A stretch of DNA of 34,473 bases from Lachnospiraceae bacterium (lineage in GTDB: Bacteria > Bacillota > Clostridia > Lachnospirales > Lachnospiraceae): positions 1-34,473 of the forward strand of contig SVFB01000054.1 of NCBI GenBank assembly GCA_015057085.1, given 5' to 3'. Both the position numbers and the translations under genes were made by a program. The notes under the pieces are model-generated. The model was not told the DNA's origin. It ran no database searches and saw nothing but the letters and a program-made list of their open reading frames with translations. The stretch's first letter is position 1; every line of letters begins with the position of its first letter. This document shows positions 24,335-29,890 of this stretch, piece after piece.

Positions 24335-25561
24335 ATGTCAAAGAGATATGCAAAAGATAGGACCAAGGAACGCTATGGTCCAAAAATCGAAAAAGTAAAT
24401 ATTTCGGAGAAATACTTCTGGCCGCGAGTGATCGCGGCCGGAGTGCTTTTGGTCATCGGTGGAATCACGCTGGGCTATTCCTGCTCTAAATTTTTTGGCG
24501 CTGATTCCGGATGGCAGGAGATTTCTACGGATTCTTCAGAAGAGATCAACTATGGTTCAGAATTTACACTCTATTACAACATCGGTGCTTCCGGTGTCCG
24601 TGCGGGTGTGGAGAGCCGTGAATTGACTGCGCTTTATACGCAGGCACAGATTGATGCATATGCTTATTTTAATTCCGATCAGGAAAGCGGCGAGTATGCA
24701 AATATCTATGACATCAACCAAAGTCCAAACACTGTTCTGACCGTCTCAGATGCGCTTTATCAGGCTTTTGAGACAATGGAAGCGTATGATGCGCGCTGGA
24801 TGTATTTGGGGCCGATTTACGCCTCTTATAGCAATCTGTTTTCCAGTGAGGATGATGTCATAGCAGAGGATTACGACCCGTATCAAAATACTGAGCTGGA
24901 AACCTATTATGCGCAAATTGCAGCCTATGCCGCTGATGAAAGCCAGATTTCCATAGAACTTTTAGGAGATAATCAGGTCCGATTGAACGTATCTGATGAA
25001 TATATGTCCTTCATCACAGCAAATGGGATTGATCAATTGATTGAATTTGATTATATGCGAAATGCATTTGTGTCGGATTATGTCGCCGGCGTTTTGGCGG
25101 ATGCAGGATATACCAACGGATGTCTGACCAGTTATGACGGATATATCAATTATCTGGATGATGGAGAATACAGCTATTCTTATACCATCTATGATAGGGA
25201 TGGAACCTCAATCCAGAATATTGCGGAAGGTTCCATTGCCGGAATGAAATCGGCAGTGGTGTTTAAGGATTTTGCGGTTGCAGACCTAGAGAATTATCGT
25301 TATTATATTTATAGTGACGGAACTGCCAGAACTTCTTATATCAGTATAGAGGATGGTAAAGATTATGCGGCAACGCCGTATTTGTATGCGGCTTCTGACT
25401 GCAAGAGTTGCGCTGAAGTATTGCTTCAAATGCTTCCTGTCTATGTGCAGAATGAATTTGATGCGGATGCTGCCTTTGCACTTGAGAGCGAGGGAATCTA
25501 TGCTCTTTATACGAAGGATCAAAAGGCGCAGACAAACCTTCCGAATAATGAATATAATTAG
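24335..25561 (+). CDS. Membrane-anchored degenerate ApbE-like protein
   Basis: The 408-residue protein has a basic N-terminus, one transmembrane helix (about 32-51) and a large outer domain. By eye the domain follows the order of ApbE (FAD:protein FMN transferase): a segment like the 'VNPTVGPL' region (LGPIYASYSNLF); a segment like the flavin-binding GGIAKGYAVDRAAELL...NLGGNI region (IEFDYMRNAFVSDYVAGVLADAGYTN then SYDGYIN); and a segment like the HIIDPRTG...ADALSTAL region (SYISIEDGKDY then ASDCKSCAEVLLQML). The key flavin and metal residues are not conserved, so transferase activity is unlikely. There is no ribosome site; translation probably couples to oppF, 2 nt upstream. A role as an importer accessory is inferred from the operon. 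The family call needs a profile search. Confidence 0.6.
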   Translation: MSKRYAKDRTKERYGPKIEKVNISEKYFWPRVIAAGVLLVIGGITLGYSCSKFFGADSGWQEISTDSSEEINYGSEFTLYYNIGASGVRAGVESRELTALYTQAQIDAYAYFNSDQESGEYANIYDINQSPNTVLTVSDALYQAFETMEAYDARWMYLGPIYASYSNLFSSEDDVIAEDYDPYQNTELETYYAQIAAYAADESQISIELLGDNQVRLNVSDEYMSFITANGIDQLIEFDYMRNAFVSDYVAGVLADAGYTNGCLTSYDGYINYLDDGEYSYSYTIYDRDGTSIQNIAEGSIAGMKSAVVFKDFAVADLENYRYYIYSDGTARTSYISIEDGKDYAATPYLYAASDCKSCAEVLLQMLPVYVQNEFDADAAFALESEGIYALYTKDQKAQTNLPNNEYN

Positions 25562-25613: not shown

Positions 25614-27287
25614 ATGGACCATAGAGGTAAAGAATACGAGACAATATTTCATCTGATTTATCTGGGTGTGCTAAGTGTCTTTGGAATATTACTTTTGGTG
25701 ACAGGGACAATCATCGGAAACAGTATCATCACAAGATGCATTTTGCTTGCGATGATGTTGATTGTATGGGGAATCCATTTTCTTCAAATCGGAAGCGCAA
25801 ACCAAAGGATCTATTTTTATACCATTACTGCGACCCTTTTTATGATGTATTACGGAAGCAAGCCGGCAAGTTTGACAGATATGCCATTGGTTTTATGTAT
25901 TATGATGATTATCCTGTCCGCACAGGCAGATATCGGGCTGATTTATCTGATTTCTATTTCATATCCTTTGATGATTTTGCATCATATCTTTATCACAGGA
26001 TATATTTCCTTGGATATGAACAAGGCTTCATTATCCCGCATTATTTTTGGCGCAATCGGAGTGATTGTGGCAATAGTGATTTCACGCTTTTTTAGTCGTT
26101 CCAACGAAAACAGCAAACGCGACAAGCTTGAGATGATGGATGAAATCGAAATTCAGCGCAAGAAAACGCAGGATTTGCTTTCAAATGTATCCCATGAATT
26201 GCGCACTCCAATCGGTGCTATTACTGGTGTATCCGAAATTCTTTTAAGCGAGGATTTAGATGATGATGTGGAAGCAAAGGTTTTGGATATCAATCATGCA
26301 GGCAATCGCATTTATCATCAGGTAAATAGTATTTTGGATTTCGCAGAACTGGCCACGAACAAGATGGTGCTCAATGAGCATACCTATTTGCTGCGCAGCC
26401 TGGTGGAACGATGTGTGGACGAGTTAAACGAAAACCCGAATCCGAGGGGCGTAAAATGCATTGCGAATATTCAGGATCACATGCCGCAATATTTAGAGGG
26501 CGATGATCAAAAGATTTATCGTGTGGTTTGTCTGTTGCTGGAGAACGCGCATAAGTTTACAAACAGCGGAAGCGTTACTTTGTCCATCGGGTTTAGAAAA
26601 GAAAGTTACGGTGGAAATTTGAATATTGAAGTGCGTGATACCGGACTCGGCATGTCCGATAAGCTGGTGAAGCGCTTGTTCCACGGGGTATATAAAGAGG
26701 ATTCCGAAAGCAACAGGATGACAAGCGGACTGGGAATCGGATTTACAATTGCCAGAGAGATGACACGCATTATGCATGGCTTTATCACGGTGGAGAGTGT
26801 GGAAGGCAGCGGTAGCTGTATTCGCGTATCCCTACCGCAAAAGGTTCCGGCGAAGATGCCTGAACCTGTGAAGACCAATGTGCTTCAGTCAGACTCTTAT
26901 CAGAATCTGCGCGTTTTAATTATCGACGACGAGCAGTTGAATCTAAAGGTGGTTCGAGGAATGCTTCGGACTTTTGGAATTCAGGCAAAGATTGCAGAGA
27001 GCGGATCTGAGGGATTGGCACTTTGCGAATTAGAGGATTATGATTTGATTTTGCTTGATTATATGATGCCGGAAATGGATGGCGAGGAGACTTTACATCG
27101 CATTCGTGCGGCACGCAACGGCTATTACAAAAATACGCCAATCGTGGCACTGACTGCAAATGCGGCCAGCGATGCGCGCAAAATGTTTTTGGAAATGGGA
27201 TTTGATGAATTCGTATCGAAGCCTGTGGAAATCAAAACATTAAAGGAGATGCTAGAACAAATGGTGGGAGGACAATCTTATGAGTAA
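25614..27287 (+). CDS. Hybrid sensor histidine kinase with receiver domain
   Basis: The 557-residue membrane protein has about six transmembrane helices in the first 165 residues with no large outer domain, so it probably senses a membrane or intracellular signal. A dimerisation/phosphoacceptor domain follows with H194 in NVSHELRTPIGAI. The ATPase domain shows the N box (LLENAHKF, N311), DTGLGMSD and GLGIGFT. A C-terminal receiver domain (about 433-550) carries the DDE acidic cluster and D482 in LLDYMMPEMDG, with a Lys in SKPVE. This arrangement passes phosphate from His to Asp and then needs an HPt protein. The next gene supplies one and overlaps this gene by 8 nt. A ribosome site, AAAGAGG (25600-25606), lies just after the importer terminator. 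Confidence 0.93.
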   Translation: MDHRGKEYETIFHLIYLGVLSVFGILLLVTGTIIGNSIITRCILLAMMLIVWGIHFLQIGSANQRIYFYTITATLFMMYYGSKPASLTDMPLVLCIMMIILSAQADIGLIYLISISYPLMILHHIFITGYISLDMNKASLSRIIFGAIGVIVAIVISRFFSRSNENSKRDKLEMMDEIEIQRKKTQDLLSNVSHELRTPIGAITGVSEILLSEDLDDDVEAKVLDINHAGNRIYHQVNSILDFAELATNKMVLNEHTYLLRSLVERCVDELNENPNPRGVKCIANIQDHMPQYLEGDDQKIYRVVCLLLENAHKFTNSGSVTLSIGFRKESYGGNLNIEVRDTGLGMSDKLVKRLFHGVYKEDSESNRMTSGLGIGFTIAREMTRIMHGFITVESVEGSGSCIRVSLPQKVPAKMPEPVKTNVLQSDSYQNLRVLIIDDEQLNLKVVRGMLRTFGIQAKIAESGSEGLALCELEDYDLILLDYMMPEMDGEETLHRIRAARNGYYKNTPIVALTANAASDARKMFLEMGFDEFVSKPVEIKTLKEMLEQMVGGQSYE

Positions 27288-28584
27288 ACTTCCAATCATG
27301 ATTACAACAGACAGTGTCTGCGATTTGCCACGGGATTTGGCAGCACAATATCAGATTAAAATTTTACCGTATTTTGTAGTGACAGATCATGGTCGATTTT
27401 TGGATCAGACCGAAATCGGAGGCCCGGATTTGGTTGATTATATGCGAAAAGGTAATTTCGCCAAGTCCTCGCGACCGAACGTGGAAGAATATCGAGATTT
27501 CTTCAAGGAGAATCTGCAAAAGGCAGACAGGATTCTTCATATCGCAATGGGGCGCGGAAGCAGTAGCGGATATACCAATGCAAGCATTGCAGCAGGCGAG
27601 TTGGAAGGTGTAAAGGTCTTTGATTCAAGACACCTTTCCAGTTCCATGGGAATGGTGGCCATCCGCGCGGCTGAATTGGCCAGGCTGGGACTTTCTGTTG
27701 ATGAAATCGTGGCATATTTGGAAAAGTATGTGCATCAGGTCAGCAGCTGCTTTTTGGTTAATGATATCGAATATCTATATCGAGCAAAGCGCATGCCAAA
27801 AAGCGTACGCAATTTATCTTATCGCTTTATGTTCCGCCCGATTTTTCATATGAAAAAAGGAACGATTTCGCTTAAGGGAATCATGTTCGGAAGCTGGAAG
27901 CATGTGGTGCGAAAGTATATCGCAAAGGTGCTGCGCCATGCCCGGAATGCAGATACCACAAGAGTATTTGTCACCCATGTGAATTTGAATCAGGAAACGT
28001 TAGAAGCCATTGCAGAAGAAATCTTAAAGCATGTATCATTCAGAGAGATTATTTTTATTGATGCAACCGCTGCGATTTCCTGCAACTGCGGAAGCGGCAC
28101 GGTTGGCGTATTATACGCAAAGAAAATGCCACTGCCGAATCAATCCGGAACAGTGTCACAGACTGAATCTGAAGCACAGACTGAATCTGAGGCACATACT
28201 GAATTTGCAGCAGATACAGCAAATCAAGCGGACAATCAGGATATTTTACAGAAACTGGACTTCCTGGATTGGCGCTCAGGAATGCTCTTTGTGGCAAATA
28301 ATGTGGACTTGTATGTAGAAATTCTAAAGGAATTTATCCACGATGACAGAGAGCAGAGGCTCACTGATTTTCTCGAAGCAAAGAAGTGGGAGGATTACCG
28401 AATCCTGGTGCATTCTTTAAAGAGCGCATCAAGAACCATAGGAATCGAAGATCTTTCAGAAGAGGCGCGCTTGCTGGAATTCGCATGCAAGGACGGAAAC
28501 TATGAATATGTAGAAGAAAATCATGGGGCGGTAATGGAGCATTTCCGCCAATATTGTAGCAAAATTAGTAACGTAGTGGATTAG
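27280..28584 (+). CDS. DegV-family fatty-acid-binding protein fused to an HPt phosphotransfer domain
   Basis: The 434-residue cytoplasmic protein has two parts. Residues 1-285 form a DegV domain: TTDSVCDLP near the start, a GRGSSSGYTNAS ligand-pocket loop, VFDSRHLSSSMGM, and the terminal GSGTVGVLYAKK. DegV proteins bind fatty acids, and in Gram-positives (as FakB) present them to a fatty-acid kinase. A Thr/Glu/Ala-rich linker (about 290-320) carrying TESEAQ repeats joins an HPt domain (about 325-430). That domain begins LDWRSGM and has the phosphoacceptor motif HSLKSASRTIG (H378), followed by a helix resembling LSEEARLLE. HPt domains relay phosphate between receiver domains. The flanking genes encode exactly such receivers: a hybrid kinase (8-nt overlap) and a REC-GGDEF protein (10-nt gap). 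The ribosome site GGAGG lies inside the kinase gene. I know of no described DegV-HPt protein. Confidence 0.9.
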   Translation: MSKLPIMITTDSVCDLPRDLAAQYQIKILPYFVVTDHGRFLDQTEIGGPDLVDYMRKGNFAKSSRPNVEEYRDFFKENLQKADRILHIAMGRGSSSGYTNASIAAGELEGVKVFDSRHLSSSMGMVAIRAAELARLGLSVDEIVAYLEKYVHQVSSCFLVNDIEYLYRAKRMPKSVRNLSYRFMFRPIFHMKKGTISLKGIMFGSWKHVVRKYIAKVLRHARNADTTRVFVTHVNLNQETLEAIAEEILKHVSFREIIFIDATAAISCNCGSGTVGVLYAKKMPLPNQSGTVSQTESEAQTESEAHTEFAADTANQADNQDILQKLDFLDWRSGMLFVANNVDLYVEILKEFIHDDREQRLTDFLEAKKWEDYRILVHSLKSASRTIGIEDLSEEARLLEFACKDGNYEYVEENHGAVMEHFRQYCSKISNVVD

Positions 28585-28594
28585 GGGAACAAAG

Positions 28595-29890
28595 ATGAAG
28601 ACAAACAGCACCATCCTTTTTGTAGATGACGACAATATGAATGTAAAAATCGGCCGCACCATTTTAAGCAAGCACTATCAGGTGGATGTGGCAATGAGCG
28701 GACATGAAGCTTTGGATTATTTGCGCACACATGCGCTTCCTTCGCTTATGCTGCTGGATTTGCATATGCCGGATATGAGCGGGCTTGATGTGCTTCGAAA
28801 ACTCAAAGAGGATCCCATCTATGATCATCTTCCGGTGATTATCTTAACAGCGGATGACGATCGAAGCAGCGAAGTAGAAGGCTTTAAATTAGGTGTCATG
28901 GATTTTATAACAAAGCCTATGGTACCGGATGTGTTATTGGAACGTATTCACAGAACCCTGGCGTTGGAAAAGCGCCAAAAGGAGCTGAGTACAGACAGCT
29001 TAACCGGCCTTAATATTCGAACAGTGGGCGAACTGGAAATCGAAAAGGCCATCGCAAAAACATCCGGTTATCTGGCATTTATGGATGTGGATAATCTCAA
29101 ACGAATCAATGATACTATTGGACATGAGGCAGGAGACAGAGTATTAAAGCTCATCGGCGATATTTTGCTGGCAAATGCCTCAAATGCCTTGGCATGCAGA
29201 ATGGGTGGCGACGAATTCCTGCTGTTCTTTAAGGGGGTTTCGGATGCTGAAATTTCTGAAATCATTGAGTCTATGATCGGAACCTTCCTGGAGAAAAAGG
29301 AACGCGATCCTGCAATCCGCGCGGCTTCTATTTCGGTGGGACTTGTGGCAACCACGCCGGAAACTACCTACAAAGAGGCATACAGCAAGGCAGATAAGGC
29401 ACTGTATCATGTGAAACAAAACGGAAAAGACGGATACTTCTTCTATCGCGAAAGCAATGATGAAGATGAGCAAAAGGATGAACATAATCTGGCTCGCCTT
29501 ACAACGGCACTTAAAAATTCCGGAAGCTATCATGGCGCGATGAATGTGGAATTCCGTGAATTTGCGAAGTTGTATGAGTATTTTATCAACTTAAAGAGAC
29601 GCTATAATCATGAATTTCATCTGGTGCTTTTGAATGTGGAAGAGCATCCGGATATTGTATTTGAAGAAATGGAAAATATCATGGCACTGTTAGAGCGCGA
29701 GATTCGCCTTACCGTGCGAAGTGTGGATGTCTGCACCCGATATTCATCCAACCAGTATTTGATCATCTTGATGGATCCGGGCGATATTGATCAGATTCGA
29801 ACTATCATCAGCCGAATTCTGAAAAATTTTTATACGGAATGCAAGGATTCCCGGGTGAAAATTACTACCTCAGATGCGGTTATGGAATAA
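28595..29890 (+). CDS. Response regulator with diguanylate cyclase (REC-GGDEF) and degenerate second GGDEF
   Basis: The 431-residue cytoplasmic protein starts with a receiver domain (1-120): DDD at the N-terminus, D55 in LLDLHMPDMSG, T in ILTADDD, and K in TKPM. A GGDEF domain (about 130-287) with an intact active site (MGGDEF, 203-208) and a DVDNLKRINDTIGHEAGD motif should make c-di-GMP from GTP. The inhibitory RxxD site that usually lies just before GGDEF is absent (NASN), so product inhibition by that route is not expected. The last about 140 residues look like a second GGDEF fold: LVLLNVEEHPD in place of DIDxFK, and RYSSNQYLIIL in place of RYGGDEFLIIL. It is therefore inactive but may bind a ligand or form dimers. 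The gene follows the DegV-HPt gene by 10 nt with ribosome site GGGGAA, and is the likely output of the phosphorelay. Confidence 0.92.
   Translation: MKTNSTILFVDDDNMNVKIGRTILSKHYQVDVAMSGHEALDYLRTHALPSLMLLDLHMPDMSGLDVLRKLKEDPIYDHLPVIILTADDDRSSEVEGFKLGVMDFITKPMVPDVLLERIHRTLALEKRQKELSTDSLTGLNIRTVGELEIEKAIAKTSGYLAFMDVDNLKRINDTIGHEAGDRVLKLIGDILLANASNALACRMGGDEFLLFFKGVSDAEISEIIESMIGTFLEKKERDPAIRAASISVGLVATTPETTYKEAYSKADKALYHVKQNGKDGYFFYRESNDEDEQKDEHNLARLTTALKNSGSYHGAMNVEFREFAKLYEYFINLKRRYNHEFHLVLLNVEEHPDIVFEEMENIMALLEREIRLTVRSVDVCTRYSSNQYLIILMDPGDIDQIRTIISRILKNFYTECKDSRVKITTSDAVME

Follow-up and report, generated by a model that had tools for sequence, protein, structure and literature searches.

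The stretch of DNA analyzed here (hereafter the window) comprises the 34,473 nucleotides of contig SVFB01000054.1 from a Lachnospiraceae bacterium (assembly GCA_015057085.1) and encodes a 434-amino acid (aa) protein in which a DegV domain is joined to a histidine phosphotransfer (HPt) domain. We propose that the genes around it form a compact multistep phosphorelay setting cyclic diguanylate (c-di-GMP), with the DegV domain acting as a re-specified intracellular ligand sensor or regulator, and judging from sequence we assign this reading a probability of about 0.58. The membrane-bound hybrid histidine kinase (HK) encoded next to the fusion would autophosphorylate on His194, and the phosphoryl group would then pass to Asp482 of the kinase's own receiver (REC) domain, to His378 of the DegV-HPt protein, and finally to Asp55 of a REC-GGDEF protein, changing its diguanylate cyclase output. 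The DegV domain, with its fold kept, would regulate this relay as a sensor of a lipid-like or other small ligand and would not be a FakB feeding phospholipid synthesis; the shuttle would be the HPt domain.

The DegV-HPt gene and its neighbors

A preliminary description of this DNA had regarded the gene as a DegV-HPt fusion encoded next to a kinase, and both points were confirmed. Pfam found DegV (PF02645, 154.7 bits) and Hpt (PF01627, 30.5 bits) in a single open reading frame. The DegV part gave a full-length PF02645/TIGR00762 match above the curated cut-off and has the DegV fold, while the HPt part is a helical bundle carrying on a helix the conserved His378, which is invariant in all seven aligned DegV-HPt proteins. 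The same fusion is present in a same-genus genome (G292), in G637, and in five proteins (P0001 to P0005). Its recurrence across three genomes and in five further proteins rules out that two genes were joined through faulty assembly or annotation, an explanation for which nothing was found in favor and to which we leave practically no probability.

The kinase gene overlaps the DegV-HPt gene from upstream, and its TM-like (transmembrane-like) segments were counted by a simple hydropathy scan; a domain search detected no HPt in this 557-aa protein. Downstream, the REC-GGDEF protein has an intact GGDEF motif at residue 204 (Pfam 114.5 bits; a second GGDEF stretch is counted by Pfam). Four candidate relay sites, His194, Asp482, His378 and Asp55, with roles assigned from their families, are found in adjacent genes (cf. 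Table 1). An identical three-gene order (kinase, DegV-HPt, REC-GGDEF) with matching flanking genes occurs at locus L049. From their sequences, we take the flanking genes of both loci to encode transporter ATPases, a membrane protein, and phosphodiester-glycosidase-like and phosphomannomutase-like proteins. The space from the transporter genes to the kinase gene codes for a 408-aa protein that is kept in L049 and for which Pfam gave no match reaching its cut-off. A scan of viral contigs with the window protein returned no relative, though the scan was deemed not informative.

The preliminary description had also suggested that bound lipid is directly coupled to the HPt domain, and this part found no support. 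The linker between the two domains is encoded by an 18-bp tandem repeat, and its length varies among DegV-HPt relatives, the total length of which ranges from 414 to 485 aa; the near-identical P0001 (484 aa) and P0002 (448 aa) depart from the window protein mainly in this respect. Since the linker is predicted with low confidence, bears a repeat and is variable in length, a rigid contact between pocket and HPt is disfavored, and the predicted structure gives no sign of the pocket facing the HPt domain.

The DegV pocket compared with FakB

Kinase-linked DegV domains were compared with FakB1 of Staphylococcus aureus through sequence alignment. FakB1 numbering was transferred through the row of 4x9x, which we take to be FakB2, and through motif spacing; the place of Ala121 was doubtful (Ser in 58 of 61 other DegVs) and hence unused. 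Of these 61 other DegVs, four are Protein Data Bank (PDB) rows and 31 are loci that ranked at the top in order and class genome searches. As stated in an excerpt of PMC8892158, Thr62, Ser95, Ser171 and His270 of FakB1 form the carboxylate network, Arg173 is a latch, Arg205 is a key residue for FakA binding and membrane contact, and Ala177, Trp180, Val181, Leu184 and Leu185 make up the apolar side of a helix that inserts into the membrane. At the places of Thr62, Ser95, Arg173, Arg205 and His270, the window protein has Ser63, Ser95, Arg171, Phe203 and Asn269, respectively. At that of Ser171 it has Ala169, a place of weak evidential value because 58 of the 61 other DegVs carry Gly there. The window DegV thus does not reproduce the carboxylate network (Thr62-Ser95-Ser171-His270) and has no counterpart of Arg205, but retains the latch arginine, which is also present in all seven DegV-HPt proteins and in 27 of 62 kinase-fused DegVs.

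Loss of two FakB residues sets the kinase-linked DegVs apart. Arg205 (as Arg or Lys) and His270 are both kept in 57/61 other DegVs, whereas neither is found in 59/62 kinase-fused, 7/7 DegV-HPt and 2/2 split kinase-type DegVs. Taken separately, the Arg205 place holds Arg or Lys in none of the seven DegV-HPt proteins and two of the 62 kinase-fused DegVs versus 57 of the 61 others, and the His270 place holds Asn in 55/62 kinase-fused DegVs and 7/7 DegV-HPt proteins. When columns were ranked without preselecting sites, the place of His270 was the most different one between kinase-linked and other DegVs, tied with residue 35, and the places of Arg205, Ser171, Trp180, Ala158 and Thr62 were also among the 22 most different columns. 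Helix places 177, 180 and 184 are apolar in 53, 57 and 59 of the 61 others versus 17, 17 and 38 of the 62 kinase-fused DegVs; places 181 and 185 are still apolar in 60 and 61 of the latter, and the membrane-inserting face is therefore only partly changed. Tunnel places 162 (Val162), 191 (Leu191) and 271 are apolar in 61, 61 and 51 of the 62 kinase-fused DegVs, while the Ala158 place is apolar in 14/62 versus 45/61 others. The conserved Asn, the apolar places 162 and 191 and the equivalents of Ser95 and Arg173 kept in the window speak against a lost pocket, and the Ala158 place points to an altered one.

These differences suggest to us that the kinase-linked DegV may be a re-specified ligand site without handover to FakA. 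The residues are compatible with fatty-acid binding by the window DegV and likewise with its loss. Fatty-acid-bound proteins are among the closest structures to the window DegV fold; VIA rows other than DegV and HPt (DhaK, FakA C-terminal domain) are probably explained by the EDD fold that these proteins have in common. Identity as a plain FakB was rejected, as the protein scores below the NCBIfam FakB1 cut-off and its key residues are changed. One FakA-type gene (PF02734) is present in the window genome, as are six DegV genes that lie neither in kinase-size frames nor in the window. The notion of a fatty-acid-binding phosphorelay shuttle, put forward in the preliminary description, is only partly supported: the fusion and its relay context are real, residues used by FakB are changed, and the shuttle would be the HPt domain.

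The wider family of DegV-linked kinases

The DegV-HPt protein is not an isolated case but one form of a larger DegV-histidine kinase family. A protein search found DegV fused to kinase domains in at least 46 of 299 genomes of the bacterial family, a lower bound counted by hand with kinase-fused frames chosen among the matches listed; the frames that contain DegV-like matches in these genomes reach about 1220 aa. Sixty kinase-fused frames (685-1152 aa) were retrieved from the 46 genomes. Pfam identified DegV and HATPase in all of 48 of them, with REC and HisKA in 45 each, and DegV, HATPase, HisKA and REC in each of the other 12, ten of which also had Hpt. The usual arrangement is a gene pair, [HK-REC-HPt][HK-REC-DegV]. 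Upstream neighbors, that is, 51 long same-strand frames beside 63 DegV genes, contained HisKA, HATPase and REC in 51/51 cases and Hpt in 34/51 by Pfam; L047 (a 769-aa glycosidase-like, non-kinase neighbor), L099 (617 bp away), L049, and short or cut frames were left out. Named genomes contributed the best 80 of 294 relatives, all from one sub-clade; these yielded 82 DegV frames: 80 HK-REC-DegV (two edge-cut) and two REC-DegV. Neighbors of these 80 were HK-REC-HPt (63), REC-HPt (3), HK-REC (2), another type (1) or missing or cut (11), and 78 of the 82 were whole HK-REC-DegV frames, where DegV follows REC on the C-terminal side. Assembly labels of the named relatives are mostly Lachnospiraceae or other Clostridia, with a single Bacteroides sp. 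and a single Thermoflexaceae. Outside the family, 116 order and 148 class genomes searched at E 1e-30 gave kinase-size frames in just two cases, G463 and G537, and a HisKA motif is present in each.

Each gene pair generally has one HPt domain. When its placement was scored with an HPt profile built in this analysis, 98 of 109 distinct pairs had HPt on the partner only, nine on the DegV gene only, none on both and two on neither; the count derives from the 134 distinct loci that remained after six duplicates were removed, less 20 loci without an adjacent kinase and five cut loci. Both HPt-less pairs are tandem DegV-kinases with HPt in the next gene upstream. Tandem HK-REC-DegV genes behind an HPt-bearing gene were observed at L158 and L144. 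The window, which lies outside the 109 counted pairs, matches the pattern, as its DegV gene has an HPt and its kinase has none. The window kinase also resembles the partner kinases: its core is nearest to their class A1 (41.8% identity; 182 bits versus 140 bits for the best HK-REC-DegV kinase), and its TM part, core and REC, taken separately, are each nearest to partner-type kinases. The alignment of A1 (n = 51) contains, at about residues 430-550, an extra conserved, degenerate-receiver-like stretch between HATPase and REC that is absent from the window kinase.

Kinase-linked DegVs group together in a tree built from 132 DegV domains, with two label changes versus a shuffled mean of 44; the split DegV gene L084 falls outside their cluster. 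When L256 and L257 were added, eight DegV-HPt proteins, L053 and L257 formed one group (support 98). DegV is N-terminal to the kinase in both L053 (DegV-TM-HK-REC, truncated where its contig stops) and L257, and the DegV-HPt form may simply be an N-terminal-DegV kinase minus its middle, although the reverse direction is also possible. HK-REC-DegV-HPt occurs as a single chain at ten loci. Several independent HPt gains were considered as well, but this idea was weakened by a kinase tree uniting all ten of these rows (98) and by a single origin of all DegV+HPt proteins that was not rejected (approximately unbiased test, p 0.38); one tree set L052 apart from the other HK-REC-DegV-HPt rows.

Of the ten rows in the DegV clade of the window, five have genomic context, and in each of these a c-di-GMP-type regulator lies near the pair. 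It is REC-GGDEF for the window and L049, and REC-REC-HD-GYP for L256, L257 and L053. The gene upstream of the partner kinase was scored at 97 loci with at least 450 bp upstream of the partner, after removal of six duplicates, 21 loci without a partner, 14 with less than 450 bp and two tandem pairs; it encoded HD-GYP in 62, GGDEF in three and another protein in 29, and was absent in three. REC was present in 45 of 47 complete HD-GYP frames at this position. GGDEF accounted for 1/58 upstream genes in the sub-clade scan and 2/39 in an even sample.

Several unusual members were noted. The L257 chain (DegV-dCache-dCache-HK-REC-HPt), encoded beside HK-REC and REC-REC-HD-GYP genes, unites DegV with Cache-type sensor domains. 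Two loci belong to the window's own genome. The L047 protein (TM-HATPase-DegV) is without HisKA or REC by Pfam and has SREL in place of the usual SHEL; its gene is followed by those of a 459-aa protein and a GGDEF-bearing 557-aa protein, and its sequence suggests a DegV pseudokinase linked to c-di-GMP. L098 and L102 resemble it. At L048, a chemotaxis-like cluster immediately precedes a gene pair of the HK-REC-HPt and HK-REC-DegV kind; this cluster comprises HD-GYP and, presumably, CheA-like, CheW-like and MCP-like (methyl-accepting chemotaxis protein-like) genes, the last three named from sequence. Stand-alone DegV genes with kinase-type residues (Asn at the His270 place) were found in L084, directly behind a hybrid kinase, and in L073, without an adjoining kinase.

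Table 1. Positions of features in the window and at related loci mentioned in the text.
Feature	Locus	Position	Strand	Remark
408-aa protein	Window	24335-25561		
Hybrid histidine kinase, 557 aa	Window	25614..27287	+	5 TM-like segments, HisKA, HATPase_c, REC
His194 codon (SHELRTP), expected autophosphorylation site	Window	26193..26195	+	Role inferred from HisKA family
REC Asp482 codon, expected phospho-acceptor of kinase	Window	27057..27059	+	Role inferred from REC family
DegV-HPt protein, 434 aa	Window	27280..28584	+	ATG inside kinase gene end, 8-nt overlap
DegV domain, residues 6-281, kinase-linked type	Window	27295..28122	+	Pfam, alignment, fold match
Linker, residues 289-314	Window	28144..28221	+	Predicted structure; predicted local distance difference test (pLDDT) <50
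18-bp tandem repeat in linker	Window	28157-28212		
HPt helical domain, residues 326-434	Window	28255..28581	+	Pfam match 356-412; predicted structure
HPt His378 codon (HSLKSAS)	Window	28411..28413	+	Motif position
REC-GGDEF response regulator, 431 aa	Window	28595..29890	+	Starts 10 nt past DegV-HPt gene
REC Asp55 codon of REC-GGDEF protein	Window	28757-28759	+	Motif position
GGDEF motif	Window	from 29204	+	Motif position
DegV-dCache-dCache-HK-REC-HPt, 1578 aa	L257	1308-6044	-	
TM-HATPase-DegV, 843 aa	L047	5718-8246	-	
Chemotaxis-like cluster upstream of DegV-kinase pair	L048	433-11319		
Stand-alone DegV, 283 aa	L084	5191-6039		
Stand-alone DegV	L073	5006-5860		
Tandem HK-REC-DegV genes	L158	1463-6849		
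Tandem HK-REC-DegV genes	L144	1464-6852		

Alternative explanations and known systems

Several observations weigh against a ligand-sensing DegV that feeds a c-di-GMP relay. The changed network residues could mean that the DegV domain binds no ligand. The relay might act on other GGDEF or HD-GYP proteins of the window genome (2.79 Mb), in which 10 matches to HD_5 and 30 to GGDEF were counted. The gene upstream of the pair is usually HD-GYP in the sub-clade scan (51/58) but not in the even sample of the wider family (11/39), and this unevenness slightly lowers our confidence both in the proposed relay and in its likeness to RpfC-RpfG discussed below; given the HD_5 and GGDEF density of the genome, even 11/39 is well above a rough expectation. 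HPt placement was derived from related genomes, the ten HK-REC-DegV-HPt rows being one clade, and its Fisher p of 1e-11 overstates independence because the rows are related by descent and the DegV+HPt state, for which a single origin was not rejected, may have arisen once. Finally, the undivided kinase-REC stretch of the window favors HK-REC-DegV kinases (229 bits versus 187 for partners), the score against partners being lower because these carry an insert between HATPase and REC.

If the DegV domain is ligand-free, it could be a scaffold that docks or dimerizes and thereby brings HPt to REC. The changed network residues, the less apolar membrane-inserting helix and the rarely apolar Ala158 place agree with this, as does the variable position of DegV, which can be C-terminal, N-terminal or a separate gene (L084), as a docking module could be. 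The conserved Asn at the pocket mouth and the apolar tunnel places would be unusual for an empty scaffold, and we regard this explanation as rather unlikely. An ordinary FakB-like carrier whose bound fatty acid directly gates HPt, as originally suggested, would account for the clear DegV fold with its fatty-acid-bound structural neighbors, for the kept equivalents of Arg173 and Ser95, and for the FakA-type gene. It is hard to reconcile with Phe and Asn at the Arg205 and His270 places, with three of five helix places that are mostly less apolar in kinase-fused rows, and with the low-confidence, variable linker, and we consider it improbable. Similarly small chances are given to DegV as the output, a REC-DegV effector in which REC or HPt phosphorylation alters lipid binding: the frequent location of DegV C-terminal to REC is a common site of output domains, but the FakA handover route is apparently lost, and separate GGDEF or HD-GYP regulators are present near the window clade, where DegV is N-terminal.

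c-di-GMP often controls attachment and motility. If the DegV domain does sense a lipid-like ligand in the proposed relay, many uncultured gut bacteria would link their intracellular lipid state directly to a phosphorelay, and this lipid line would reach c-di-GMP at least in the clade of the window. The family would then illustrate cleanly how a metabolic carrier can become a signaling domain. Combined loss of Arg205 and His270 offers a two-residue signature for finding and re-annotating such proteins, and the one-HPt-per-pair pattern makes the wiring testable.

Consistent with the preliminary description, which knew of no described example, a literature search with a scope lacking most subscription papers gave no paper on a DegV-kinase or DegV-HPt fusion among the matches listed. 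Excerpts of two papers place DegV as a gene neighbor of hemolysin III (PMC3146951) and, unfused, as a gene lost in a deletion next to a two-component pair (PMC12688256). FakB/DegV proteins such as S. aureus FakB1 (5uto) and Bacillus subtilis DegV (3fys) differ from the window protein, in which the domain is fused to a signaling domain and has Phe at Arg205, Asn at His270 and Ser at Thr62, with relatives changed at three of five helix places. In the SaeRS system of S. aureus, cellular fatty acids influence a histidine kinase, and FakA/FakB did not phosphorylate SaeS or SaeR, as reported in an excerpt of PMC5539427; here, unlike there, a relay domain and the DegV fold share one polypeptide. ArcB, BarA and TorS share the HK-REC-HPt logic, and the kinase halves match their NCBIfam models below cut-off, but here HPt is on a separate DegV protein and a DegV module is added.

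The nearest system in terms of function is RpfC-RpfG of Xanthomonas, in which the fatty acid diffusible signal factor (DSF) is sensed by a five-TM hybrid kinase (HK, REC and HPt) that acts on an HD-GYP response regulator, a phosphodiesterase, with c-di-GMP as output (excerpt of PMC5391125). RpfC senses DSF via its N-terminal and membrane region, and the excerpt names no DegV domain. Of the 155 NCBIfam rows that the window kinase gave, the best 25 included no Rpf-named model, and no RpfC reference was compared; we point to a system that works alike and claim no membership. HK-REC-HPt is paired with REC-HD-GYP in many relatives. It is tempting to speculate, though we hold it doubtful, that the DegV systems are a Gram-positive counterpart of RpfC-RpfG, with a cytosolic DegV receptor for a fatty acid-like or other gut-derived amphipathic ligand, a relay with one HPt for each gene pair, and c-di-GMP control via HD-GYP or GGDEF. 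The DegV domain would then represent a new class among the ligand-sensing domains of histidine kinase signaling, derived from a lipid carrier by loss of FakA handover and a His-to-Asn change at the carboxylate site.

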